From positions 1 through 16,194 of the forward strand of contig JACQZI010000036.1 in the NCBI GenBank assembly GCA_016207825.1: 16,194 nucleotides of DNA, in the 5' to 3' direction. How positions within the stretch are numbered: the stretch's first letter is position 1; every line of letters begins with the position of its first letter. Position numbers and translations under genes: made by a program. The notes below the pieces were generated by a model. It worked only from the letters and a program-made list of their open reading frames with translations. It was not told the origin of the DNA and ran no database searches. Source of the DNA: Planctomycetota bacterium (GTDB lineage Bacteria; Planctomycetota; MHYJ01; JACQXL01; JACQZI01). This document shows positions 577 to 14,825 of the stretch, piece by piece.

Positions 577-1797
577 TTAATTATGCGTGACCATTTCCAG
601 CATTGCCTGAACGCGCGTTTTCAGCCTGCCGGAATCCGACGGTGAATAGTCCGTTTCCAACTTCAAATACGGCAGTTTGTGCCTGCCTTTCACATGCTTT
701 TCCAACAGAACCGATTCTACATTATATGTATGACACCCCTGCCAGACCAGTTCTATCACCCCTTGCACCTTATATTGCTTAATCAGCTTATCCAACAAAT
801 CCAAGCGGCGTTTATTGGGAGTCATTACCGAACATGGTATATGGAAATACTTTTCGGCAATGGCAAGCAAGGGGTCGCTGGTTTCCCGGACATCTTCCTC
901 AATCGGTTTTATACCGGTGCAAGATTCTTGCACCACGACCGCCCCACCGGCATCCTCGATTATCTTCATCACCTTTTCCGCCTCGTGAGGCATGGGCACA
1001 CCGGTTACCAAGATTCTAGGACGGGATAAACCCCGACGTTCGTCGGGACAGGCAGATTTCCCTGATAATATCTTCTCATACATCCGGAAATCTTCCGGCA
1101 TGCCGGATATCAGGCTTTTGGCATTGAGTATTTGCAATCCGGAAAGCAAAGGAATCTTTTCCGTGGCAAGTTCCGCTACCTTCCTACGCAGGCGGCGTTC
1201 CTCATTCATAACCCTGATGGCTTCTTTCAGCTTGCAATCGGTTATTTCAGTCTTCAACTCCTTTTCCAGATATTCCTTTAGCTTTACTATTTCCGCGTGC
1301 CAGTGCTTGAAGGCATCCGGGTCGTCGGACTTCTGGGGAAGTTCCATGACATACATCTTTTTACGCTGGGCAAGGAGTTCAAACATCTTCTTTTTCCCAT
1401 CGCAGGTGGTCTCGCCGATTAAGAGTTCGGACATTTCCAGGAACGGATTCGCCTTAAGCTTGGCATAGCCATAGGAACTCTTAATCAAGGGACAAAGGCT
1501 TGAAGGCAAATCCTCTTCCGCCGCGGAGATAGTCTGGTTGCTTCCCCCGCACATACAGACCGGAACGCCTCCGGCTGCCATAATTATTTCGCGCGGAGTG
1601 TATTCGCAAAAGATACCGACTATCTTTTTGTCATGAGCTTTGGCGCTTTGGGCGTATTCAAGGCAGTTGGAAATCATATTGTCAAAATAATCCAAAGGGC
1701 TTGAACATGATTCAGCGCTTTTCACTGTTTTGGAACAGCAAGCAGGATTCTTATTGTCCCATCGCGGGGATATGTTGCTACTACATTTATCTGTCAT
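577..1797 (-). CDS. Double-cubane-cluster / 2-hydroxyacyl-CoA dehydratase-like protein (YjiM/HgdB family)
   Basis: 406 residues. It closely follows the E. coli YjiM pattern of the HgdB/BcrB superfamily, whose double-cubane members bind an 8Fe-9S cluster and receive low-potential electrons from a separate ATPase. Recognisable blocks are FCEYTP (Cys64), LCPLIKSSYG (Cys102), GETTCDGKKKM (Cys132), RILVTG, SCTG, WQGCHTY and the C-terminal LETDYS. The Cys positions expected for cluster ligation are all present. The N-terminal 50 residues are unusually Cys-rich (C5, C20, C21, C31, C45). The start at 1797 lies 1 nt after the selD stop, implying translational coupling; the frame is open to an ATG at 1860 inside selD, but that extension resembles nothing in the family. 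The ATPase activator is not in the window. The natural substrate is unknown, and its place in a selenium operon is notable. A palindromic insertion encodes CPDERRG (about residues 250-256). Confidence 0.85.
   Translation of the reverse strand: MTDKCSSNISPRWDNKNPACCSKTVKSAESCSSPLDYFDNMISNCLEYAQSAKAHDKKIVGIFCEYTPREIIMAAGGVPVCMCGGSNQTISAAEEDLPSSLCPLIKSSYGYAKLKANPFLEMSELLIGETTCDGKKKMFELLAQRKKMYVMELPQKSDDPDAFKHWHAEIVKLKEYLEKELKTEITDCKLKEAIRVMNEERRLRRKVAELATEKIPLLSGLQILNAKSLISGMPEDFRMYEKILSGKSACPDERRGLSRPRILVTGVPMPHEAEKVMKIIEDAGGAVVVQESCTGIKPIEEDVRETSDPLLAIAEKYFHIPCSVMTPNKRRLDLLDKLIKQYKVQGVIELVWQGCHTYNVESVLLEKHVKGRHKLPYLKLETDYSPSDSGRLKTRVQAMLEMVTHN
1032..1047. repeat. REP-like palindrome, copy 3, inside a coding sequence
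   Basis: CCCGAC-GTTC-GTCGGG, followed by AC: the same architecture as the intergenic copies at 374-390 and 417-432. It is read through in frame on the minus strand as CPDERRG within the YjiM-like protein, just before the RILVTG strand. From memory, E. coli YjiM has no matching segment here. It therefore looks like an in-frame palindrome insertion in a loop between the two Rossmann-like halves. Confidence 0.55.
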
Positions 1798-1798
1798 T

Positions 1799-2845
1799 TT
1801 ATTTGGTAAGCAGGATATCTTTTTCCTGTTTGGCAACAACTTTCCCAATAATACAAGCATGCTTAACGCCCTGATTATGCAGTTCTTTCAAGAGTTTCTG
1901 CGCTTTTTTCTCAGGGACGGACATCAATAATCCACCTGAAGTCTGGGCGTCAAAGGCAATATGATGCATTTCCCCTGGAATGCCATCTTCTATATCCACA
2001 AACTGGCTGTAATAATCAATATTAGTAAATGAACCACCGGGCATGATGTTCTCACGCGCGTAGGCTTTGGCTTCCTCAAAGACAGGAAGTTTACTTATGG
2101 AAATCTTGAGAGTTACTTTACTTCCACGGGCGACTTCAGAAGCGTGGCCGATAAGGCCGAAACCGGTTATATCCGTCGCGGCATTTACTCCGACCTTTAA
2201 CATCACTTCCGAGGAGGTTTTATTGAGCGTCGCCATTGATTTGGTAATCTTTTTCATTAACTCATCCGGAATAGGGCTCATGCTATTCGCCATGGTAATA
2301 ATTCCGATACCCAGCGGTTTGGTTAATATCAGGATATCGCCTTCTTTGGCGGCGCTATTGGTAATAATCTTTTTGGGATGTATAAGGCCGGTAACGGACA
2401 TCCCGTATTTTAACTCTGGGTCAAGCATGCTATGCCCGCCGACGATGACTGCACCGGTTTCCATAACTTTTTCCGCCCCACCGCGGAGTATCTCCGCTAT
2501 GATATCGTGGTTTATCTTCTTGGCTGGAAATCCGAGTATGTTCATGATGGTCAGCGGTCTTCCGCCCATGGCATAGACATCACTCAATGAATTCGCCGCC
2601 ACGATAGAGCCGTAATCGTAGGGGTCATCCACTATGGGCGTAAAGATATCGACCGTCTGAACGAGCGCGGTTTCGCTATTCAAGCGATAGACTCCGGCAT
2701 CATCCAGCGTTTCCATGCTAACCAACAGGTTAGCATCCTTAAACTTAGGCAGACGGCGCAGGACCTGCTCCGTGTCCTTAGGGGACATCTTGCCCGCTCA
2801 ACCCACACAGCCGGCGTATTTTGTCAGACGCACTGGTTCGGCCAT
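1799..2845 (-). CDS. selD: Selenide, water dikinase (selenophosphate synthetase), selenocysteine-containing
   Basis: Makes selenophosphate from selenide and ATP, the Se donor for Sec-tRNA (with SelA, encoded upstream). 348 residues if the in-frame TGA at 2798-2800 is read as Sec. The N-terminus reads LTKY-AGCVG-U16-AGK19-MSPKD. U16 aligns with catalytic Cys17 and K19 with Lys20 of the E. coli enzyme (LTQYSHGAGCGCKISPK). Other family blocks are TVDIFTPIVDDPYDYG, NSLSDVYAMGG, VGGHSM, TKPLGIG, DITGFGLIGH and DAQTSGGLLMSV. The true start at 2845 has a strong AAAGGAGG (2849-2856) upstream. An ATG at 2788, downstream of the TGA, would remove the catalytic residues and has no such site. A SECIS-like hairpin follows the TGA. 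It is followed after 1 nt by the YjiM-like gene. Confidence 0.96.
2753..2773 (-). promoter_or_regulatory. Predicted bacterial SECIS element of selD
   Basis: On the minus strand, arms ACGGAGCAG and CTGCGCCGT pair (8 bp plus one A-G mismatch) around the loop GTC. The loop starts 33 nt after the UGA, inside the 16-37 nt window accepted for bacterial SECIS elements, and begins with GU. The tip, GCAG-GTC-CTGC, is nearly the same as the E. coli fdhF SECIS tip (GCAGGUCUGC), where the loop G and U contact SelB. It supports Sec insertion at 2798-2800. A competing AGGAC/GTCCT pairing exists, so folding was not proved. Confidence 0.75.
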
Positions 2846-2939: not shown

Positions 2940-3626
2940 TTATTCATTTATCGTAATAGTTTTCTCAGCTTCAAGGTTTCCGGCCAGCGGAGAGGCATCA
3001 AACACTATTTTCATTTTATATTCCTTGGCACCTTTGGGTATTAACCACGAATACCCGTTGCAAGCACCGCCTCACCCATAGGTGGGCTTAATGCCGCCGG
3101 CAGGATTACCGTCACTGTCTTCTATGCTTAATTTCAGCTTTTTGTCAATGCTCCCTATGGAGGAAACATCATATCTCTCGCCGCGCGCGCCTATCACAAC
3201 CGGGTTAACCGTTACCTGCCTTCCCGGCCTGAGTTCAGGCGGATTAAAAGCGATACTCACCTTAAAAGGCTTGCCTAATTTCAGCTCAAATGTTTCCCCC
3301 GGTTTAACGGTAAAAGGCACGGCGGAAGAAAATTCGAACGCGGAATAAACATCTCCGGCCGAGATTAAAACGGCCATTCCGCTTTCAATACGGTAACTAT
3401 CCGCAGGCAGTTTTATCCCGTCAGCAATATTCTCATCGACATATATGGGACGACCTTTTGAATCAACCATCCTCAGATAAGTTATTTTCGCGCCGGGATT
3501 GTCCGCATCCAGTGAGATTTTCAATGCCCCTATATTTTCAGAAGGCGTATTGATGATTAACCTCTCGTGGGATTTTTCGCACCCGATAAGCATAACGAAA
3601 GCTACAATAATGATTAAATTCCGCAT
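2940..3626 (-). CDS. Predicted selenocysteine-containing lipoprotein (novel selenoprotein candidate, TGA read-through)
   Basis: Starts 10 nt after selA with GGAGGT 5 nt before the ATG. Residues 1-16 form a lipoprotein signal (hydrophobic stretch ending L-I-G-C16). The mature part is beta-rich and Ig-like, with no family I recognise. The frame meets TGA at 3072-3074 (codon 185) and continues for 43 sense codons to TAA at 2940, giving 228 residues with ...KPTYG-U185-GGAC189-NGYSW. The read-through part ends in strand-like sequence (YKMKIVFD, EKTITINE), as expected for the closing strands of the same domain. If it stopped at TGA the protein would end mid-domain. A perfect 7-bp hairpin with a G-containing loop lies at SECIS distance. 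U185-x3-C189 resembles a redox pair, so a thiol/selenol function on the outer face of a membrane is inferred. Alternatives are a nonsense mutation or a sequencing error. Confidence 0.82.
3036..3056 (-). promoter_or_regulatory. Predicted bacterial SECIS element of the Sec-lipoprotein
   Basis: On the minus strand GGGTATT and AATACCC pair perfectly (7 bp) around the loop CGTGGTT. The loop starts 22 nt after the UGA at 3072-3074, close to the E. coli fdhF spacing, and has G in its second position, meeting the usual bacterial SECIS rule. A lower CTTG/CAAG pairing could extend the stem through an internal loop. A perfect 7-bp hairpin at exactly this position is strong support for Sec insertion here. 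Confidence 0.75.
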
Positions 3627-3636
3627 GAGACACCTC

Positions 3637-5064
3637 CTATAAAATTGATTTCAAAGCCTTTATTATTTCCGCATCTTCTCCGTCAAGGATGGTTCGGAAA
3701 TCAAATAAGACCCTATCTCCTTTAACTCTGGTAAAAACTGGCAATTCCCTATCGCGTAATTTATCGGCAAGCGCCTGGGCGGAGATTTTATCCAACCTGA
3801 CCGAAACGGCCTTGGTCGGAATATCATAACCGGAAAGCGAGCCGCTGCCGGGCTGAGAATATTCATCAAGCGCCTTAACTTCCAGTTCCGGTAAAGCGGT
3901 CTGCAAGATATTCCTAAAAGATTCGGCTTTTGCCGTAATCGTTTTAATATCCATGGTAAGCATTCTGATGGTTGGATTGGTTCGGAAAAGCGTTTCTTTA
4001 TTACGGAATAGTTTAAAAGTCGCTTCCAGGGCGATTAAGCTAAGTTTGCCGAGCCGGAAAGCGCGCATCAACGGGTTTTTCCTTATCTTTTCTATATATT
4101 TTTTCTTTCCAATGATGATGCCTCCCTGCGGGCCACCCAATAATTTATCGGCGCTAAAGCATATTACATCAGCTCCTGCCTTGATGCTCCCGGAAACAAG
4201 AGGTTCATCTTTAAATCCGTAATCACTTAAATCTACCAGGGCGCCGGAACCGATGTCGTCAATCACCGGTATCTTATGCTTTTTGCCCACCTTGACGAGC
4301 TCTTCCAGTGGAACATCCGCGGTGAACCCGATTATTTTATAATTACTGTTATGGACTCGCAAGAGCGCCCCGGTTTCCTTGGAGATGGCTTTTTCATAAT
4401 CCTTAAGATGGGTGCGGTTGGTGGTCCCTATTTCCACCAGCTTCGCGCCGCTGGTAGACATGATATCCGGAATGCGGAACGAACCCCCGATTTCCACCAT
4501 CTGCCCTCGCGAACAAATCACCTCCCTGCCTTTGGCTAGAGTATTAAGTATGAGAACCGTAGCGGCGGCGTTGTTGTTAGTAATTGTGGCTGCTTCGGCA
4601 CCGGTAATTTCGCAAATCAGTTCTTCCAGTATTTTATCTCTGCTTTGGCGCTTGCCCGTTTCCAGGTCGGCGGCAATTCTGGTATAACCGGCTAATTCTT
4701 TCCCTAATGATTCAAACACCTCGCGCGCCAGGACAGCCCTTCCCAAAGCGGTATGCAACACAATTCCAGCGGCATTTATCGCCCTACGGAATGAAGGCAT
4801 GGACTTTGAATATAATTCTTTTTCTATCTCGGATACTAATTCATTATTACTCGGAATGTTAAACCCGAATGATTCGGCTTTTCCCAGAGATATAATTTGC
4901 TGCCTTAGCGAACCGAGAACCCCCCTTGCAGTATTTGCCACCATGCCGCGGGGAAAAGCCTGCTGAAGGAGTGATATTTTATCCGAGGCAAGCAATTCTT
5001 CTGTTGAAGGGATCTTCCTCAGGATTGATTTTTGCCATTGCGAAACGGTTTCTTTTGCCATCAT
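3637..5064 (-). CDS. selA: L-seryl-tRNA(Sec) selenium transferase
   Basis: PLP enzyme converting Ser-tRNA(Sec) to Sec-tRNA(Sec) with selenophosphate (from SelD); cytosolic homodecamer in characterised bacteria. 475 residues, the usual length. The N-terminal helical part includes IPSTEELL and FPRGMVANTARGVLGSLRQQI. The core has INAAGIVLHTALGRAVL, ITNNNAAATVLILNTLAKGREVICSRGQ split by strands, IGTTNRTHLKDYE, DDIGSGAL and FSADKLLGGPQGG, with the PLP lysine at about K307. The C-terminus ends TRVKGDRVLFDFRT...DAEII. First gene of the minus-strand selenium operon; its TAG stop abuts the Shine-Dalgarno site of the lipoprotein gene. Two adjacent ATGs (5064 and 5061) are possible starts. The promoter spacing suggests a leaderless message beginning at or near either one. 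Confidence 0.97.
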   Translation of the reverse strand: MMAKETVSQWQKSILRKIPSTEELLASDKISLLQQAFPRGMVANTARGVLGSLRQQIISLGKAESFGFNIPSNNELVSEIEKELYSKSMPSFRRAINAAGIVLHTALGRAVLAREVFESLGKELAGYTRIAADLETGKRQSRDKILEELICEITGAEAATITNNNAAATVLILNTLAKGREVICSRGQMVEIGGSFRIPDIMSTSGAKLVEIGTTNRTHLKDYEKAISKETGALLRVHNSNYKIIGFTADVPLEELVKVGKKHKIPVIDDIGSGALVDLSDYGFKDEPLVSGSIKAGADVICFSADKLLGGPQGGIIIGKKKYIEKIRKNPLMRAFRLGKLSLIALEATFKLFRNKETLFRTNPTIRMLTMDIKTITAKAESFRNILQTALPELEVKALDEYSQPGSGSLSGYDIPTKAVSVRLDKISAQALADKLRDRELPVFTRVKGDRVLFDFRTILDGEDAEIIKALKSIL

Positions 5065-5193: not shown

Positions 5194-5221
5194 TTGACAA
5201 TATGAAAAGTTATTGTATGAT
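5194..5221 (+). promoter_or_regulatory. Predicted promoter of the HEAT/TPR gene
   Basis: TTGACA (5194-5199), a 16-bp spacer and TATGAT (5216-5221). The -10 ends 8 nt before the ATG at 5230, so transcription should start within a couple of nucleotides of the start codon. No Shine-Dalgarno sequence precedes it. This argues for a leaderless mRNA and against the in-frame TTG at 5221, which overlaps the -10 box. Confidence 0.65.
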
Positions 5222-5229
5222 TGGTTCTT

Positions 5230-8200
5230 ATGAAGATAAAAAATATTTTGCTCATACTTGTTTTAATCACCGGCTTATTTATAAACGGTAAAAACACTGC
5301 ACGGGCGGAAAACACAGCCGAGCTCAAACGGATACAAAAATTAATCGAGCTCTTGGGGGATGAAGACTGGGAAACCAGGGAGAACGCCACCAACGACCTG
5401 ATAAACATCGGCGACGGCGCACTTGAACCGGTCAAAGGAATACTGACTCATCCCGACCCCGAAGTACGCCTGCGAGCCAAGCTGATATTTAAAACCATAA
5501 AATGGGGAGTTTCCCCCGAACTAAGGAATAAAATAGGCAACGTCATGAACGACTTTGAAGAAGGAACGACCGAGGTAAAACAGCAAATCATTAACCAGCT
5601 TATCCAATACGGAGTGTCAGCCGCGCCGATTTATTTTAAAATCTTATTATACGAATCAGACGAAACAGTAAAACAACAGGTTTACAGCCTATTATATACG
5701 TATTTAAACGATGCTGAGTTCCTCAAGAAATTACTCTCGGCATCCACGGATTCTTCGGACTACTGGATTAACAGGCTGATGGGAGACAGTTTCCAGCGGA
5801 CAGCTGATTATACGGAAGCCATCAAATATTATGAAAAAGCATTTAAGGTAAAGCCGGCCGATACTAATTTAGTTCCCATATTGGATTCGGCGTATTCCCA
5901 GGGAAAACAATGGGAAAAAGGCATCGCACTATACGAAAACCTGATTAAACAGGGGAATAAACAGGCTTCTTATTATATCCGGCTGGGAGTGATGTATCAT
6001 AAAGCCGCAAATAAAGATAAAGCAAAGTCGATTTTTGATGATATCCTCTCCACCCAAAAAGCAACGGCTGATGACATCCTTTCAATAAGCCGCTTTTACG
6101 AAGCGCAGGGAAATCTTGCCGAAGCCGTTGAATTCTATAAAAAAGGCGCGGGAACTTTCCCGGAAGATATAAATCTGCTAAATGGATTAACCATGTGTTA
6201 CATGATGCAGGAGGATTATGATAGCGCCATTCCTGCCTTTGAGAAATTATTGAATAAAGCGCCTCCCCTGCCAAACCAGTTTATTTTGGTGGTATTCGAA
6301 AACCTGGGGGAATGCTATTACCAGAAAAACGACCTGCAAAAGGCAAAAGATACATGGTGGCGCATGGTTGATACCCAGGAACCACAACTCATGTATTTCC
6401 AACAGCTTATAAACGTGCTGGAAAACCATGACCTGACCGAAGAAATAATAAAAGCATACCAACTTGCTTTTAAATCGTTTCCGGATGACAGCGATTTTAA
6501 GATAGAATTGGCAAAAACGCACTACCGGCAACAGGATTATAAAACGGCTCTCGAAACATTACTAACCGCCTATCAGGGAACGGCGCCGCACCTGGAAATA
6601 ATCTTTGAAACTTTTATGAACACCATGCTTTTTAATGATCAGACCGGCACTATTGCAAAAGATTTACTGGAAAAGCACGTATCCGAAAACCAAAACAGCA
6701 TTTTCCCGAAGCTTCTTTTGGCCAATACCATGGAAAACCAAGGCAAAAAAGATAAAGCGCTGGAAATACTAAACGGGCTTTTAGATGGAAACAACGAATT
6801 CTCAGAATTTGAATACCGCAAAACCGGCTTGTTGCTCTACCGGCTTAAAAGTTACGACACGGCAATTTCCCTTTATAATAAAATGCTTTCTTTTTACCAG
6901 AATAAAAACAACGACTGCACCGAGGTTTACGAAGCTTTAGGGCAATGTTATTACGCAAAAGGGGATGCTGCAAACGCCCAAAAAACCTGGTTAAAGATAA
7001 CGGCTGAAAATAAGGCACAGGATTTAGCGGCCTGCCTTTCCCAGGGCAGAATATTCCTGGCACATAAAATGTTCCCTGATGCCCAGCAATCATACGAAAC
7101 CGCCCTTAAATTAACAAAGGAGCCGGAACAGCTGCGCGGAATTTATTATTGTTTGGTAAAAACATCATTGGCCGGTAAAAACATTGATGAGGCGATTAAA
7201 TATTTCTGTGCGGCCAAAGAAACGGCGGTTAAAGATGCAGATTATGATATCATGGGTGATTACCTGATTGATATGTCATTGCCGGACCCCGTAACAACCG
7301 CTAATGACCGTGACAAACTGATTGACGGAATAATGACGAAAATCGAACAGGATGTAAACAAACTTAAAGAAAAAGATAAAGCTAACATTTTATTATTACT
7401 TTCACGCTTCTATCAAGCCCAGGAGAAAACAAAAGAATCTGCCGAATCAATCAAAGAAGCCATCAAGCTGCTTCCCGATAATAAAGACATCCGTTACAGA
7501 TTGGGATTCATTTATTATTATTCCGGTGCTTTTGACGATGCAGAAAAAACCTACCGGGAGCTGGGCGAAAAAGAACCTTCTAACCCGCTTCCCTTATACC
7601 TTTTAGGGGAAACATATAAACAGAAAAACCAGAAACAAAAATCAGCCGATATTATCAATAAAGCGCAAAATATAAGCAGCTCTTACCCGGAAAGCGACCA
7701 CTTAAACTGGGGCAGCTATCTTAAGCAAATAGGCTTTAATGAAACCGCCCTCTATGAATTAAACCAGATAATACAAATGCCGCCGCAAAACAGCATTAAC
7801 GACGCCAACGCCTATGAACTGTTAGGGAACCTGATGCTAAAGGATAATAATTTCGAACAGGCTTTGAAATATATCCTGAAAGAACGAAAGATTATCTCTG
7901 ACAGAAATATCATCCTGATGTATGATATGGATAGATTTTTCAGCAAAGGCTATCACACGCTTTCCCAATACCAGAAAACGGATTTTATCAATTCCTATAT
8001 TGAATACCTGAAAGGAAAATCTTATTATCAGTCCAATAAAACAGCCGAAGGCAAAAAATGCCTGGAAAACGCCCTGGAAATCCACCCGGGAAATTTTGCC
8101 GTGGTTAACGGGTTAATCGAACTTGCGGAACAAAATAAATTCCCCGCACAGGAATTAAAGAAACTGTCCGCTGGCGTGATAAAGTATAACGAGATCCAAT

Positions 8201-8469
8201 TAGAACAAAACCCTTCCGATTCCTACCATTACTATGCCTTGGCGGAAACCTACCGTTTGTTTACGGATAAAACCGATGAAGCGCTGGATTTAATTAATAA
8301 AGCATTATTACTGGAACCCGGCGTTTTGGATTATTATTACACACTGGCCGAAATTTATCTCAAGAAAAACGATGTTAAATCAGCCGGGAAAATCGCCCGG
8401 ACGCTCTTAAACCTGAGGCCCAATCAGGAAACATATCGGAAACTAACGGAAAAGACCAAGGATAAATGA
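5230..8469 (+). CDS. Large exported HEAT- and TPR-repeat protein
   Basis: 1079 residues. An N-terminal Sec signal peptide (KIKN, then a hydrophobic stretch, cleavage near ARA-EN) points to export. Residues about 31-92 form a HEAT-type unit (LIELLGDEDWETRENATNDL...DPEVRLRAKLIFK). Most of the rest, from about residue 165, is tandem tetratricopeptide repeats, with many A-x3-Y/F-x3-L/A-x-P signatures such as YTEAIKYYEKAFKVKP, EEAVEFYKKG-like units and EALDLINKALLLEPG near the C-terminus. It is probably an all-helical periplasmic or surface scaffold for protein-protein contacts; no catalytic domain is seen. Its stop overlaps the aroA start (ATGA), so the two are co-translated, though no functional link is obvious. 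A paralogous HEAT module is encoded at about 10735-10920. Confidence 0.85.
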   Translation: MKIKNILLILVLITGLFINGKNTARAENTAELKRIQKLIELLGDEDWETRENATNDLINIGDGALEPVKGILTHPDPEVRLRAKLIFKTIKWGVSPELRNKIGNVMNDFEEGTTEVKQQIINQLIQYGVSAAPIYFKILLYESDETVKQQVYSLLYTYLNDAEFLKKLLSASTDSSDYWINRLMGDSFQRTADYTEAIKYYEKAFKVKPADTNLVPILDSAYSQGKQWEKGIALYENLIKQGNKQASYYIRLGVMYHKAANKDKAKSIFDDILSTQKATADDILSISRFYEAQGNLAEAVEFYKKGAGTFPEDINLLNGLTMCYMMQEDYDSAIPAFEKLLNKAPPLPNQFILVVFENLGECYYQKNDLQKAKDTWWRMVDTQEPQLMYFQQLINVLENHDLTEEIIKAYQLAFKSFPDDSDFKIELAKTHYRQQDYKTALETLLTAYQGTAPHLEIIFETFMNTMLFNDQTGTIAKDLLEKHVSENQNSIFPKLLLANTMENQGKKDKALEILNGLLDGNNEFSEFEYRKTGLLLYRLKSYDTAISLYNKMLSFYQNKNNDCTEVYEALGQCYYAKGDAANAQKTWLKITAENKAQDLAACLSQGRIFLAHKMFPDAQQSYETALKLTKEPEQLRGIYYCLVKTSLAGKNIDEAIKYFCAAKETAVKDADYDIMGDYLIDMSLPDPVTTANDRDKLIDGIMTKIEQDVNKLKEKDKANILLLLSRFYQAQEKTKESAESIKEAIKLLPDNKDIRYRLGFIYYYSGAFDDAEKTYRELGEKEPSNPLPLYLLGETYKQKNQKQKSADIINKAQNISSSYPESDHLNWGSYLKQIGFNETALYELNQIIQMPPQNSINDANAYELLGNLMLKDNNFEQALKYILKERKIISDRNIILMYDMDRFFSKGYHTLSQYQKTDFINSYIEYLKGKSYYQSNKTAEGKKCLENALEIHPGNFAVVNGLIELAEQNKFPAQELKKLSAGVIKYNEIQLEQNPSDSYHYYALAETYRLFTDKTDEALDLINKALLLEPGVLDYYYTLAEIYLKKNDVKSAGKIARTLLNLRPNQETYRKLTEKTKDK

Positions 8470-9842: not shown

Positions 9843-11144
9843 ATGCTAAAAAAACTGGTGATTGCCTTTTGTTTAATATTAGTGATAACCGGTTTCGTAT
9901 TCAGCCAAATGCAACAGCTTGAAATTGAAATCTTCCCTGAACCGGCCGCACCAACCCCATCTACAAGCCAGGGGAACATGTCTACTTGCGCTGATTTCAA
10001 TAATATTAAAAGCTTATGGACCGCTTCGGTAAACTTTAAACCGGTCGGCAAGGAAGGATTGGAAGAAAAGCGCAAAACCACTCAGCAACAGCTAGATACC
10101 TATGTTAAATCGATGGAAAAGAACTCTTTTTCCGGTCGATGGGTAAGAAATTTCCTTGAATCCGAATTCGACAATCTCTTTTTATTTATAGGCTGCCGGG
10201 AAAAACTGCTGCAGGATAAAAATATTCCTGAGGACGAATCAATAAACGCCTTTAAAAAAGAATTGAACTTCTGCTACGAAGGCGTTAAAACCCTGGAAAC
10301 CTTCAAAGAATATGACTGGTGGATGGGAGAAATGATTGAAAACCGCTGCCAGCGCGCTTTCCAAACCGTGCGTAAAACCTCTTTTAAGAAAAAACTTTCC
10401 ACACTCAACCTAAACACAGAACAATACAAAGAATTCATCATCAAAATAATAGACGGGCTTTTCGATTACAAGCAAAAAATTAAGCCCTCCGCCAAACCGG
10501 CAACCCTTGGAAAAACGAAAGAACCATTAAAAGACGTTAAAATTAAAACCCCGAAAGGCCAATGGACTGAACATAAACGAGAAGGTAATGAACTCTTCGA
10601 AACAGACATACTGGAAATCACTGCCAAGGAAGAACAGAAAATAATGCTGGCAGACAGGCGCTATATCGTCCTGGAAGCTGAAGCCATCATGACCGGATGG
10701 GAAATTTATCCTGCCATACCGGAAACACTGAATAAAGATATTGCCCGCCTGATCGAACTCTTAAACGCCGATGATTGGGAAACCAGGGAAAATGCCACCA
10801 ATGAGCTTATTTCAATCGGCGAGCCGACTATTTCCGCCGTGGAAAAAGCGTGCGCACATGTTGAGCCGGAAGTAAGAATGCGGGCAAATTATATATTAAA
10901 GAAAATCAAACGGGGTAATGTCGACGAACAAGTCCGCGCCGTCTTGGAACCATACTTAAAAACCGGCAGATATCCGAACGGCCAGGAATGGAAACAGCTG
11001 ACTGAACAATTGCTATCCTTGGGCGAAGCAGCACGCATCATAGAAGTGCTCGAAATAATCCAGGGGGAACAAGCCCAAAACACCCAGCAATGGTATATCA
11101 TGCAGCAATTCTTGCAAATGATACGGCCCAGAATGCGCAGGTAA
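9843..11144 (+). CDS. Exported protein of unknown function with C-terminal HEAT module
   Basis: 433 residues. An N-terminal signal peptide (LKK, hydrophobic core, cleavage near VFS-Q) indicates export. Residues about 25-270 are mainly helical and charged and match nothing I recognise; several Cys are scattered there (for example STCADF, IGCREK, NFCYEG, NRCQRA). Residues about 297-360 carry a HEAT-like unit (LIELLNADDWETRENATNELISIG...EPEVRMRANYILKKIKRG) closely matching the N-terminal unit of the large TPR protein upstream, including at DNA level. The C-terminus is Gln-rich helix ending RPRMRR. It has its own promoter and RBS. No catalytic motif is seen; a periplasmic scaffold or adaptor role is a guess. 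Confidence 0.75.
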   Translation: MLKKLVIAFCLILVITGFVFSQMQQLEIEIFPEPAAPTPSTSQGNMSTCADFNNIKSLWTASVNFKPVGKEGLEEKRKTTQQQLDTYVKSMEKNSFSGRWVRNFLESEFDNLFLFIGCREKLLQDKNIPEDESINAFKKELNFCYEGVKTLETFKEYDWWMGEMIENRCQRAFQTVRKTSFKKKLSTLNLNTEQYKEFIIKIIDGLFDYKQKIKPSAKPATLGKTKEPLKDVKIKTPKGQWTEHKREGNELFETDILEITAKEEQKIMLADRRYIVLEAEAIMTGWEIYPAIPETLNKDIARLIELLNADDWETRENATNELISIGEPTISAVEKACAHVEPEVRMRANYILKKIKRGNVDEQVRAVLEPYLKTGRYPNGQEWKQLTEQLLSLGEAARIIEVLEIIQGEQAQNTQQWYIMQQFLQMIRPRMRR

Positions 11145-11300: not shown

Positions 11301-11333
11301 AAAACATCTTTAACGTTGAAAGTGCGTACTGAT

Positions 11334-12542
11334 ATGACTAACATTATTTACCTCGATAATGCCGCAACCACTTTCCCCAAACCCCCCGAAATATACGATT
11401 TCATGATTGATTTTTACCGTACAAACGGGGTTAATCCGGGACGGACCGGTTGCGATTTGGCTCTGGCTGCGGAAAAAATGATAAACGATACGCGCCAGAT
11501 GCTTACTAAGTTCTTCGGCGCAAAAGGCGATTATAACCGCCTGGTATTTTCCTATAATGCCAGTGATTCACTCAACATCATTATTAATGGTGTCTTAAAT
11601 AAAGGCGACCATGTGGTTTCTACCGTGATGGAACATAATTCCGTCTTGCGCCCCTTGAATTTCCTGCAGAAGGAAGGCAAAATCACGGTCGATTGGGCAA
11701 AGGCGGATAAAAAAGGCTTGGTCGCACCGGATGAAATCAAACGCCTTATCCGCAAGAACACCAAGCTGGTCATCGTAAACCACGGCTCTAATGTCGTGGG
11801 AAGCATACAGCCGATCAAGGAAATAGGCGCGATATGCCGCGCTAAAGGAATACTTTTTGCCATAGACGCCGCCCAAACCGCCGGCATGGTTCCAATTAAC
11901 ATGGAAGAAATAAATATAGATTTACTGGCTTTTACCGGGCACAAATCGCTTTTCGGGCCAACCGGAATCGGCGGCCTATATGTCCGTGAAGGAGTTGACG
12001 TGAAACCATTACGCCACGGCGGAACCGGCGTTCGTTCGGCTTATCCGTATCATCTGGAAGAATACCCCTGGCGACTTGAATGCGGCACGCTTAATATGGT
12101 CGGCATTGCCGGACTCTATGCCGGCCAAAAATGGATAGCCAAACAGGGATTCGATAATATCAGGCAACACGAGATGAAACTGGCAAAAAAACTGGTCGAG
12201 GGCTTATATGGAATAGAAGGCGTAACCGTTTATTGCCCGAAAAATATGGAAAACAGGCTGCCGGTAATTTCCGTAAATGTTGATGGTTTTGAATCGGCCG
12301 ATGTCGGGGTCCAGCTTGATGTCGACCATGATATCATCACCCGCACCGGACTTCACTGCGCCCCCAAAGTCCATGAAACCATCGGAACAATCAAAGCCGG
12401 CACTACCAGGCTTTCTATCGGACCATTCAATACCATCCAGCATATCGAAACGGCAATAAGCGCCGTTAAGGGAATCGCCCAGGCAGGCTTGCAAAGGGTA
12501 AACCAGAATAAAATAGTTTATGAAACATCGCTGGAATCTTAA
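11334..12542 (+). CDS. Cysteine desulfurase, class V aminotransferase, group II (EF2568-like family)
   Basis: 402 residues. A PLP enzyme that releases sulfur (or selenium) from cysteine (selenocysteine) as an enzyme persulfide. Evidence: NIIYLDNAATTFPKP at the N-terminus, EHNSVLRPL (PLP-stacking His region), NHGSNVVGSIQPI, AIDAAQTAGM (PLP Asp), TGHKSLFGPTGIGG with the Schiff-base Lys at K204, and RTGLHCAPKVHE with the catalytic Cys at C342. The GLHCAP form is typical of the SufS/CsdB side and of a subfamily (am_tr_V_EF2568) often seen near selenium genes. I chose ATG 11334 over an in-frame TTG at 11316 because the NIIYLDN start fits the family. It leads a four-gene operon with dsrC 2 nt downstream, so sulfur transfer to DsrC is the likely job; a selenium role is the alternative. 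Confidence 0.9.
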   Translation: MTNIIYLDNAATTFPKPPEIYDFMIDFYRTNGVNPGRTGCDLALAAEKMINDTRQMLTKFFGAKGDYNRLVFSYNASDSLNIIINGVLNKGDHVVSTVMEHNSVLRPLNFLQKEGKITVDWAKADKKGLVAPDEIKRLIRKNTKLVIVNHGSNVVGSIQPIKEIGAICRAKGILFAIDAAQTAGMVPINMEEINIDLLAFTGHKSLFGPTGIGGLYVREGVDVKPLRHGGTGVRSAYPYHLEEYPWRLECGTLNMVGIAGLYAGQKWIAKQGFDNIRQHEMKLAKKLVEGLYGIEGVTVYCPKNMENRLPVISVNVDGFESADVGVQLDVDHDIITRTGLHCAPKVHETIGTIKAGTTRLSIGPFNTIQHIETAISAVKGIAQAGLQRVNQNKIVYETSLES

Positions 12543-12544
12543 AT

Positions 12545-12877
12545 ATGGAAGAAGGAAAAACAATCATTAAATTGCCCGATGGCAGGGAAATCGAAGTTGA
12601 TAAAGAAGGTTTTATGGTTCACCCTGAATTATGGAGCGAGGAGATTGCCGTATCCTTCGCCAAACTTGAAGGGATTGAAACCTTAACCGAAGAGCACTGG
12701 TCGGTGATAAAATATATCAGGAACCACTATCTGGAAAACGACCTTGCCCCCATGGTCAGAAGTATCTGCAAAACCACCTGCCTGCCGTTAAAAAAGATAT
12801 ACGAACTCTTCCCGGCCGGTCCTGCCAAAGGCGCTTGCAAATGGGCCGGGCTTCCCAAACCTGACGGCTGTGTTTAA
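12545..12877 (+). CDS. dsrC: DsrC/TusE-family sulfur carrier with both redox cysteines
   Basis: 110 residues, the family length. DsrC carries sulfur as a persulfide or trisulfide on its C-terminal arm and exchanges electrons with DsrMK-type membrane complexes; TusE relays sulfur for tRNA thiolation. The C-terminus reads YELFPAGPAKGAC98KWAGLPKPDGC109V. Both the penultimate CysA (C109) and CysB (C98), spaced by ten residues, are present, as in true DsrC, whereas E. coli TusE lacks CysB. The N-terminal half has the usual VDKEGF and PELWSEEIA features. Unusually, two more cysteines (C75, C79, in SICKTTCLPLKK) sit where Desulfovibrio DsrC has SKNTGFKLK. Start 2 nt after the desulfurase stop. No DsrAB, DsrEFH or TusBCD genes are in the window, so a role in dissimilatory sulfite reduction cannot be claimed. 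Confidence 0.93.
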   Translation: MEEGKTIIKLPDGREIEVDKEGFMVHPELWSEEIAVSFAKLEGIETLTEEHWSVIKYIRNHYLENDLAPMVRSICKTTCLPLKKIYELFPAGPAKGACKWAGLPKPDGCV

Positions 12878-12888
12878 CCGAAGTATCT

Positions 12889-13524
12889 ATGGAAACCGTT
12901 GATTTCACCATTCTTACCGCAATCTTGTGTATCCTCACCCTCGGCATAATGATGCTCCTTACCTTTAGCAAACTGCGCAAGGATTTTTCCGAACCTAAAG
13001 GCAGTCCAGCCAAAGGAATTGCTTATGCCCTGACCTTCGGCATGCTCCCGGGCGCAAAGGAAAGCGCTTCCCAACATCTTACCTCATACCTTGCCGGTAT
13101 CTTATTCCATATCGGGATATTCGCCTCGTTTTTATCTACGGCGATTATTTATTTTGGGCTGAATGATACTTTGATAATTCCCGATTGGCCGCTTTACATA
13201 CTAATGGGATTGATTGCCATAGGCCTGTTAAACGGATTGGGTTTGCTGATAAAACGGATTATAAATCAACGGCTCAGGGCTCTCAGCCACTTTGACGACT
13301 ATTTTTCCAATATCCTGGTTAATGTCTTTCTTGCCGCCGCTATGGCCGCCCTGATTGGTAAAACAGAAACCGCTTATAACTTTATGTATCTTATCGAAGG
13401 CATATTATTTTTATACATCCCCCTTGGCAAACTGCGCCATTGCGCGTATTTCTTTGCCACGCGGATAATGTTCGGAATGTTTTACGGGCATCGGGGTGTC
13501 TTGAATAAAATAAAGGCTGGCTGA
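12889..13524 (+). CDS. NarI/DsrM-like membrane cytochrome b subunit
   Basis: 211 residues with five predicted membrane helices (about residues 7-26, 64-89, 102-121, 140-156, 166-198). Histidines H63 and H74 in helix 2 and H184 and H201 around helix 5 are spaced 11 and 17 apart. That nearly reproduces the NarI ligand pattern (about 10 and 18 apart) that binds two b hemes. This family (NarI, DsrM, TmcC, HdrE) exchanges electrons between (mena)quinol and a cytoplasmic partner. The partner here is presumably the HdrD/DsrK-like protein starting 2 nt after its stop. Shorter than typical DsrM; no periplasmic cytochrome c gene adjoins. Sequence identity to DsrM or TmcC was not assessed. Confidence 0.82.
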   Translation: METVDFTILTAILCILTLGIMMLLTFSKLRKDFSEPKGSPAKGIAYALTFGMLPGAKESASQHLTSYLAGILFHIGIFASFLSTAIIYFGLNDTLIIPDWPLYILMGLIAIGLLNGLGLLIKRIINQRLRALSHFDDYFSNILVNVFLAAAMAALIGKTETAYNFMYLIEGILFLYIPLGKLRHCAYFFATRIMFGMFYGHRGVLNKIKAG

Positions 13525-13526
13525 AA

Positions 13527-14825
13527 ATGACCGAAAAGAAACCTGATACCGAAGCGGCTTTCAAGAGGTTCAAGGAGCTTCTGGACGCCAAAATCCATAT
13601 ATACATGAACGCCTGCGTCCATTGCGGACTGTGCGCGGATACCTGCCATTATTCGCTGGCTAATCCGGATGATATTGAAATGATTCCGGCATTCAAGATA
13701 AATAAGATTACTTCCTTTTACCGCAGGTATCATACCGTTCTGGGAAAACTTATCCCCTTCTGGACAGGCGCCAGAAAACTGGATGAAAATTACGCCAAAG
13801 AACTGGTTGATACCGCGTTCGGCAAATGCACGATGTGCGGCCGGTGCGGGATAAACTGCTCAATCGGCTTAAACGCTGGACAGCTGATGCGCGCGGCAAG
13901 AACGGCACTGGTGGAAGCCGGGCTTGTCCCGGATTCGCTCCAGGCAACCGTGGATAACGCCGTTAAGACCGGCAACAATATGGCGATAACCGAAAAAGAC
14001 TTCGTGGATACCATCGAATGGCTGCAGGAAGACCTGCAGATGGAGTTAAAAGACGACAAGGTAAAGCTCCCTATCAATAAACAGGGCGCTGATATAATGT
14101 ATACGCTTAATCCCAGGGAGCCAAAGTTTTTCCCCTTATCCATCTCCGCCATGGGCAAGGTATTCCACGCGGCAGGCGAAAACTGGACTTTTAGCAGCAA
14201 GAACTATGACGTAACCAATTACGCCCTTTTCAGCGGAAACGACCGCGAGGCCCTGGAAATCTCAATAAGGCTCGTTGACGAGGCGAAACAGCTCGGCGTA
14301 AAAAAGATAGTGCTGGCAGAATGCGGGCACGGCTTCCGGGCCACCCGCTGGGAGCTAGCCAACTGGAAAAAAGAAAAACTGGATATAGAAATCGTGAGTG
14401 TCCTGGAGCTTATGGCGGAATATATAAAGACCGGGAGACTGGAACTTGACCCATCAAAAAATAAGGAACGCGTCACCCTGCACGACCCGTGCAACCTGGT
14501 GCGCAACGGCGGTATCATAGAAGAACAGCGTTATATACTGAAGAAAGCGGTTAATGACTTTGTTGAAATGATTCCCAACCGGGCGCAGAACTTCTGTTGC
14601 GGGGGCGGGGGCGGAATGCTCGCCATGGGTGAATATTCCGACCGGCGCAAAAAGGCCGGTAAGATTAAAGCCGACCAGATTAAAGCCACCGGAGCCAAGG
14701 TGGTCGCAACACCCTGCCACAACTGCATTGACCAACTGACCGAACTAAACACGCTTTATAACCTCGGCGTAAAGATTAAAACCGTCAGCGAAGTCCTTGC
14801 CGAAGCCATAGTATTTGACAAATAA
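13527..14825 (+). CDS. HdrD/DsrK/TmcB-like heterodisulfide-reductase-type Fe-S protein
   Basis: 432 residues. Two N-terminal 4Fe-4S ferredoxin motifs (C30-x2-C33-x2-C36-x3-C40 and C101-x2-C104-x2-C107-x3-C111) are followed by two CCG domains. The first is reduced to LAECGHGFR (C266), as in DsrK. The second is complete: C322 (HDPCN), C357-C358 (FCCGGGGG), C397 and C400 (TPCHNC), giving CX34CCX38CXXC, the ligand set of the catalytic noncubane Fe-S cluster that cleaves disulfides in HdrB/HdrD. In DsrMKJOP the DsrK subunit acts on the DsrC disulfide or trisulfide, and DsrC is encoded in this operon. It probably docks on the cytoplasmic face of the upstream cytochrome b. Not glycolate oxidase GlcF or LutA/GlpC, because of the AECGH signature and the neighbours. 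Confidence 0.9.
   Translation: MTEKKPDTEAAFKRFKELLDAKIHIYMNACVHCGLCADTCHYSLANPDDIEMIPAFKINKITSFYRRYHTVLGKLIPFWTGARKLDENYAKELVDTAFGKCTMCGRCGINCSIGLNAGQLMRAARTALVEAGLVPDSLQATVDNAVKTGNNMAITEKDFVDTIEWLQEDLQMELKDDKVKLPINKQGADIMYTLNPREPKFFPLSISAMGKVFHAAGENWTFSSKNYDVTNYALFSGNDREALEISIRLVDEAKQLGVKKIVLAECGHGFRATRWELANWKKEKLDIEIVSVLELMAEYIKTGRLELDPSKNKERVTLHDPCNLVRNGGIIEEQRYILKKAVNDFVEMIPNRAQNFCCGGGGGMLAMGEYSDRRKKAGKIKADQIKATGAKVVATPCHNCIDQLTELNTLYNLGVKIKTVSEVLAEAIVFDK

Follow-up and report, generated by a model that had tools for sequence, protein, structure and literature searches.

Prokaryotic selenoproteins have been inventoried as 119 families, and most of the characterized ones are thioredoxin-like (PMC13188914). 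In bacterial selenoproteins such as FdhA, SelD and GrdB, the UGA codon is followed at a distance of 16-37 nt by a hairpin with a G in the first loop positions (bSECIS), the genome carries selA, selB, selC and selD, and variants with Cys exist. The family reported here has these properties in common with them. It differs in that Sec is located in a predicted Ig/macroglobulin-like sandwich outside the cytoplasm, that Sec forms far outnumber Cys forms among the copies found, and that no curated selenoprotein model is matched over its cut-off. A second point of comparison is provided by the SAO/Tso operons (Haft and Gwadz; PMC13188914). As in SAO, selenoproteins are clustered with SaoA/P/X-like ABC transporter parts. 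However, the neighbours of our family score below the cut-offs of the SAO models, no model exists for the family, and selA, selB and selD occur in the cluster. With the hypothetical protein DG (NF049953), the family shares the short string G-U-x-G, whereas the weak matches of the DG model fall at other loci. Macroglobulin and bacterial alpha-2-macroglobulin Ig-like domains (PF01835 and kin) may resemble it in predicted fold, at Z values near the background for Ig folds, and by weak MG2 matches, but the Sec loop has no known counterpart there. The gene analysed here belongs to a large, apparently undescribed family of bacterial selenoproteins that offers a new setting for Sec.

According to a preliminary description of this DNA, no selenoprotein with such an architecture is known to have been described. 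This agrees with our searches: no curated model in Pfam or NCBIfam (June 2026) matches the family over its cut-off, and none of the 119 families in the 2026 inventory (PMC13188914) has its motif and architecture. The known GUxG families DG and OS_HP2 (NF041425) were considered as its identity and rejected after both models had been tested. In ten family-bearing genomes nothing exceeded the DG cut-off of 130 bits, and the best OS_HP2 match reached 54 bits (cut-off 100 bits), with none at a family locus. The literature search revealed no paper that deals with Sec in this family or in any Ig-like domain of bacteria; a mention in Haft and Gwadz 2023 or in subscription papers is possible.

The window, i.e. 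the whole analysed stretch of 16,194 nucleotides from a Planctomycetota bacterium, carries on its minus strand, in this order, selA, the Sec lipoprotein gene, selD and the gene for a double-cubane reductase (Table 1). The first two gaps comprise 10 and 94 nt, and the last two genes overlap. The location between selA and selD had been recognized before, and both neighbours are now matched by profiles. ATG 3626 is regarded as the start codon because a strong ribosome-binding site, AGGAGGTG, is present just 5' of it. As originally described, the frame is interrupted only once, by the TGA, after which 43 sense codons follow up to the TAA. Translation of 2943-3626(-) with TGA as Sec yields 228 residues with one U, at 185; the peptide across this site reads, for example, KPTYG-U-GGACNGYSWLIPK. 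At the N-terminus, a signal peptide and the lipobox LIGC, whose last residue is C16, mark the protein as a predicted lipoprotein. The proposed lipid tether on C16 fits this motif and its retention in a homolog from the same genus. The listed ORF of the adjacent selD starts too late, past TGA 2798-2800(-); when this TGA is read through, the SelD sequence reads M...KYAGCVGUAGKMSPKD.

Table 1. Features of the selA-selD region in the window. Positions refer to the window.
Feature	Position	Strand	Basis or detail
Sec-containing lipoprotein gene	2940..3626	(-)	228 aa read-through, TAA 2940-2942
In-frame TGA read as selenocysteine, U185	3072..3074	(-)	U column in homologs
Signal peptide and lipobox LIGC, residues 1-16	3579..3626	(-)	Sequence; LIGC kept in homolog G001
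C-terminal Ig/macroglobulin-like beta-sandwich, residues 118-228, with Sec loop 181-191	2943..3275	(-)	AlphaFold2 model, structure comparison
SECIS-type hairpin	3036..3056	(-)	7 bp, 7-nt loop, G at loop position 2, loop 22 nt past TGA
selA	3637..5064	(-)	PF03841, 463 bits; 10 nt upstream of Sec gene, co-directional
selD, itself encoding a Sec protein (TGA 2798-2800, C-V-G-U)	1799..2845	(-)	TIGR00476, 370 bits; translation
Double-cubane-cluster anaerobic reductase gene	577..1860	(-)	NF040772, 440 bits, over cut-off

Other parts of the window deserve mention. At 71-331, a tandem array of about 12 copies of the 22-bp unit ATGGAGTCTCTCCGCATTTGAG is present, which was also scored as a 66-bp higher-order unit. 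A TPR protein (5221-8469) and a second secreted protein (9843-11144) have the stretch DWETRENATN(D/E)LI.IG in common, probably a HEAT-like repeat. The region 11316-14825(+) encodes a cysteine desulfurase family protein (TIGR01977; 353 bits to the Sec lyase SclA model, which is below cut-off) followed by DsrC/TusE-like, HmcE-like membrane and HmcF/DsrK-like iron-sulfur proteins. A sulfur or selenium relay with an electron-transfer complex is a possible role of these genes.

The sequence of the window is by itself only suggestive, and the case for Sec is decided by the homologs. A protein search that did not require a TGA detected homologs from the same phylum in 11 of 149 related genomes, and most of them are read with exactly one TGA. 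A profile was built from nine homologs with Cys written in the Sec column, which again made no TGA necessary. It matched 98 of 392 Planctomycetota genomes. Many of the weaker stop-less matches span only the N-terminal part of the domain and were left out of the counts. In Verrucomicrobiota, 6 of 240 genomes contain the family, and all nine matches there have one TGA. Furthermore, one genome per species was scanned with a DNA pattern that includes the TGA (GGNTGAGGNGGNNNNTGYNNNYWBTCNTGG). It was found in at least 113 stretches; among those listed, 105 are family members by profile, and 8 (6 of the first 80 loci and 2 of the next 33) were dropped as chance matches. According to the record titles, the 105 members listed originate from Planctomycetota (about 70), Verrucomicrobiota (16), Hydrogenedentota (6), Sumerlaeota/BRC1 (5), Lentisphaerae (2), Omnitrophota (2, one genome), Riflebacteria (1) and an 'Actinomycetes' MAG (1), and single MAG records of the rarer phyla may be mis-binned. 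Scans of viral and genome contigs with the single window protein yielded no matches, whereas the DNA pattern with TGA did find members. Probably, the former is due to the divergence of the window member and to the back-translation of its Sec codon as Cys.

In the 223 domain copies collected, the Sec column is occupied by U in 213 cases and by C in 5, whereas T, Y and G occur once each. A set that owes nothing to the TGA pattern comprises 67 distinct U copies. The consensus around Sec is (Y/F)-G-U-G-G-x-C-x-Y-S-W-x-x-P, and the conserved end of the protein that comes after it contains G-P-F. The relatives do not end at the TGA, and conservation past it is high. The in-frame TGA is flanked on both sides by conserved coding sequence, as in bacterial selenoproteins in general. 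The recurrence of the TGA at the same column in many genomes bears out the original assignment, and from this comparison it is virtually certain that Sec is encoded at the window TGA. The proposed extracytoplasmic selenol/thiol site U185-G-G-A-C189 is supported with respect to its location, but the Cys partner is common rather than universal: 168 of 208 members have Cys at +4 (C189 in the window), compared to only 30 of the 67 copies found without the DNA pattern. Judged from the alignments, the constant core of the motif is G-U-G and not U-x3-C. This means that a pure U-x3-C redox pair is not the sole possible chemistry.

Codons were compared with those of G001, a homolog from the same genus. 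Of the 64 codons preceding the TGA, 15 are identical, 17 synonymous and 32 nonsynonymous; for the 42 codons that follow it, these numbers are 27, 8 and 7, respectively, with 12 of 16 base differences in third positions. Therefore, the protein constraint on the frame is stronger after the TGA than before it. Homologs with Cys at the Sec site exist, too: five rows from four genomes. One form is clear (QCCGNYRLSW in L029/L066), and the other three are weak matches. The clear form comes from a genome that lacks selB and is reported to be 99% complete. Since it nests inside the Sec sequences of the tree, it looks like a case in which Sec was replaced after loss of the machinery. At another locus (L084, G071:C186), two family copies are adjacent, one with U (GUGGYCGYSW) and the other with Y and a changed motif (EYGGRFGHCGYWW); by its sequence, this pair reads as the loss of Sec in a duplicate, in a genome still using Sec.

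The hairpin of the window, GGGTATT-CGTGGTT-AATACCC, had been proposed to fit the bacterial SECIS rules. This applies to its position, loop size and loop G, but its energy of -6.1 kcal/mol does not reach the -7.5 demanded by the published bacterial model, and its folding z-score is close to 0. In the family, 51% of the TGAs (55% in the set found without the TGA pattern) are followed by a hairpin that obeys the SECIS rules at <= -7.5 kcal/mol, compared to 11% in upstream control windows of the same genes. For covariation analysis, ungapped alignments of 48 nt from the TGA were used, in which stem columns 17-24 pair with 28-35. Stem pairing was found in 75% of the cells for 30 profile-found copies and in 86% for 60 pattern-found copies, with 40 and 49 two-sided stem changes, respectively. 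The covariation scores of 0.43 and 0.28 were reached by none of 500 shuffles, and sliding the partner destroys the signal. Part of this covariation could result from correlated codons, since the same bases code for protein and the rows are related. On the other hand, stem variants at one and the same place, such as GCTCTC/GAGAGC, GGTACTC/GAGTACC, GGTTCTC/GAGAACC and GGCTAC/GTAGCC, would be hard to explain without a covarying hairpin.

The genome itself possesses the Sec machinery: selA and selD are located in the window, and selB (C10:44896-46791) and tRNA-Sec (C10:44713-44805, 70.3 bits) lie side by side at another place of the genome. A second HGD-like protein, which is double-cubane-related (56 bits), is encoded together with them (C10:44713-48885), apart from the window operon. 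In 50 of 57 genomes with a TGA-containing member, selB is present, compared to 235 of 392 overall (Fisher p = 1.6e-6), and six of the seven TGA-bearing genomes without selB are less than 85% complete. For member loci mostly outside Planctomycetota, selB exceeded the cut-off in 15 of the 19 genomes behind them. The TGA might be explained without Sec, by a nonsense mutation, a sequencing error or genome-wide recoding of TGA to Trp or Gly. In fact, TGA is only one base away from TGG or TGY, and Sec in the window is read from sequence. However, about 200 distinct copies from several phyla share the TGA at this column, and the most common replacement is Cys, never Trp. In addition, the hairpin covaries and selB is associated with the family. 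Genome-wide recoding is ruled out, as TGA is an ordinary stop elsewhere in this genome: it terminates 2 of the 11 genes in the window and, in the surroundings of selB, 2 of 12 long frames. A simple nonsense mutation or sequencing error is ruled out by the homologs. The conserved TGA column refutes all these alternatives to Sec, and their probability is negligible.

AlphaFold2 predicts two beta-sandwich domains for the window protein (mean pLDDT 82), with a poorly defined Sec loop; for a short form encoded in another sel operon (L144), the pLDDT is 94. The best structural matches of the Sec domain are macroglobulin (MG) domains with Z values of 8.7 (window) and 8.0 (L144). Since these values are near the background for Ig folds, no function follows from the fold. 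A Foldseek/VIA comparison returned only generic Ig/FN3/macroglobulin matches, with neither a catalytic analogue nor a thioredoxin-like fold, and comparison of the profile with the sequences of solved structures gave only weak, unrelated matches. The MG2 profile matches 10 of 58 members weakly. The Ig-like region recognized earlier is consistent with both model and structure comparison.

The initial description can be refined: the Sec lipoprotein is not an isolated one, but represents a small member of a large family. Most other members are secreted or membrane proteins of 400-700 aa with plain signal peptides or membrane anchors at their N-termini. From these N-terminal features and the lipobox, the Sec sites are expected outside the cytoplasm, in line with the preliminary description. 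In a large clade, the Sec domain is followed by several hydrophobic stretches that apparently span the membrane (L124, L128, L139, L164). At one locus (L116:1740-7841), a BlaR1-type M56 peptidase and leucine-rich repeats are joined in a single frame to two copies of the domain, of which the first has T in place of Sec and the second has Sec. This fusion, together with the apparently multi-pass segments of L124, L128 and L139, could point to a sensing domain, with an oxidant or a selenium species outside the cytoplasm being detected by the Sec loop and the signal being passed on via the attached modules. As the fusion was seen only once and the short lipoprotein of the window lacks a transducer, we consider sensing very unlikely.

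The neighbourhood was studied at the 105 member loci listed from the pattern scan, with at most 8 kb each, chosen without regard to the neighbours. Among them, selB was found at 19, selA at 18, selD at 12 and any of the three at 28. By chance, linkage to sel genes would be expected at about 0.6% per locus (binomial 1.5e-37, with relatedness ignored). On the tree, linkage requires 25 changes, at least 17 of them forced by well-supported branches, compared to 40 in shuffles. This means, linkage occurs in many lineages, yet it is clustered. Other recurrent neighbours are the double-cubane reductase, its activase, a second HGD-like protein, a DVU_1556-like methyltransferase, an SsuA/SaoX-like ABC transporter and a NapH-like membrane ferredoxin. 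A dicubane protein and a CoA-enzyme activase have been provisionally tied to selenium metabolism (PMC5322559, PMC10418091). A protein of about 290 aa without Pfam match (L163:2491-3366) recurs between the Sec gene and the ABC transporter (L123, L130, L148, L158, L163). At L070, L128 and L192, runs of family genes of the membrane and the secreted type precede a gene for a large secreted protein with carboxypeptidase-regulatory-like and macroglobulin-like domains (L192:5806-7998). The cluster of this secreted protein was seen in 22 loci, and the NapH-like ferredoxin is also present at L070 and L128.

Among the neighbours, there are matches to SaoA (246 bits), SaoP (160 bits) and SaoX (34 bits), and the methyltransferase is distantly related to ArsM. 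This would suit a role in organometal or metalloid handling in which Sec serves as ligand for the metal, by analogy with the Sec-assisted organometallic (SAO) operons. All Sao and methyltransferase scores are, however, below the curated cut-offs and indicate relatives only, and the most common linked genes are selA and selB, which makes this role improbable. Alternatively, the family might be real Sec proteins for general extracytoplasmic redox or metal chemistry, e.g. the handling of disulfides or peroxide, that adjoin selA and selD only as a main client of the Sec machinery. Such a function is compatible with the 77 of the 105 listed loci without sel linkage, with the occurrence of members in paralog arrays and with the NapH-like membrane ferredoxin, and with the view that most known selenoproteins are redox proteins (PMC13188914). 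It leaves aside that the sel-linked loci also bring selenium-associated enzymes and an ABC transporter, and that the fold is not thioredoxin-like. We regard it as rather unlikely.

What the comparisons demonstrate at the level of genes is a UGA that acts as a Sec codon with a bacterial SECIS, a large Sec family, and an operon that the gene shares with selA, selD and the gene for a double-cubane reductase; in the product, Sec is located in a loop of a predicted Ig/macroglobulin-like domain. With high confidence, the best explanation is that the gene encodes a true selenoprotein. For the Sec site taken separately, we favour, at slightly less than an even chance, that it captures or reduces extracytoplasmic selenium species for the adjacent selenium-assimilation genes. 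Sec would be inserted at U185 by SelB and tRNA-Sec, and the chain would be exported and lipidated on C16, so that its domain resides outside the cytoplasm. The selenol, often together with the Cys four residues on, might bind or reductively open extracytoplasmic selenium species. Where an SsuABC-like ABC transporter is present, it could mediate uptake, and the double-cubane enzyme may then carry out a low-potential reduction that provides selenide for SelD. On the other hand, the operon linkage may reflect only co-regulation, most members are not located beside sel genes, many divergent members lack the Cys at +4, and the fold is a widespread scaffold without a known active site for comparison.

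The family comprises more than 200 distinct Sec copies from several phyla of mostly uncultured bacteria, often with several copies per genome. When read with the standard code, these genes stop at the Sec codon, whereby the last strands and everything beyond them are lost, which in some members includes a whole membrane part. In 2024, no specific selenium transporter had been identified according to the authors of PMC11097638. The repeated location beside selA, selB, selD, a double-cubane reductase and an ABC transporter makes the family a concrete candidate in this open question. Tentatively, and with rather low confidence, it could be the extracytoplasmic part of a dedicated selenium-acquisition (or -sensing) system in Planctomycetota and related phyla, in which capture or reduction of outside selenium by Sec would be followed by transport, double-cubane reduction and transfer to SelD. 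If acquisition is indeed its task, this would be the first known Sec protein for obtaining selenium from outside the bacterial cell and the first protein with Sec in an Ig-like domain.
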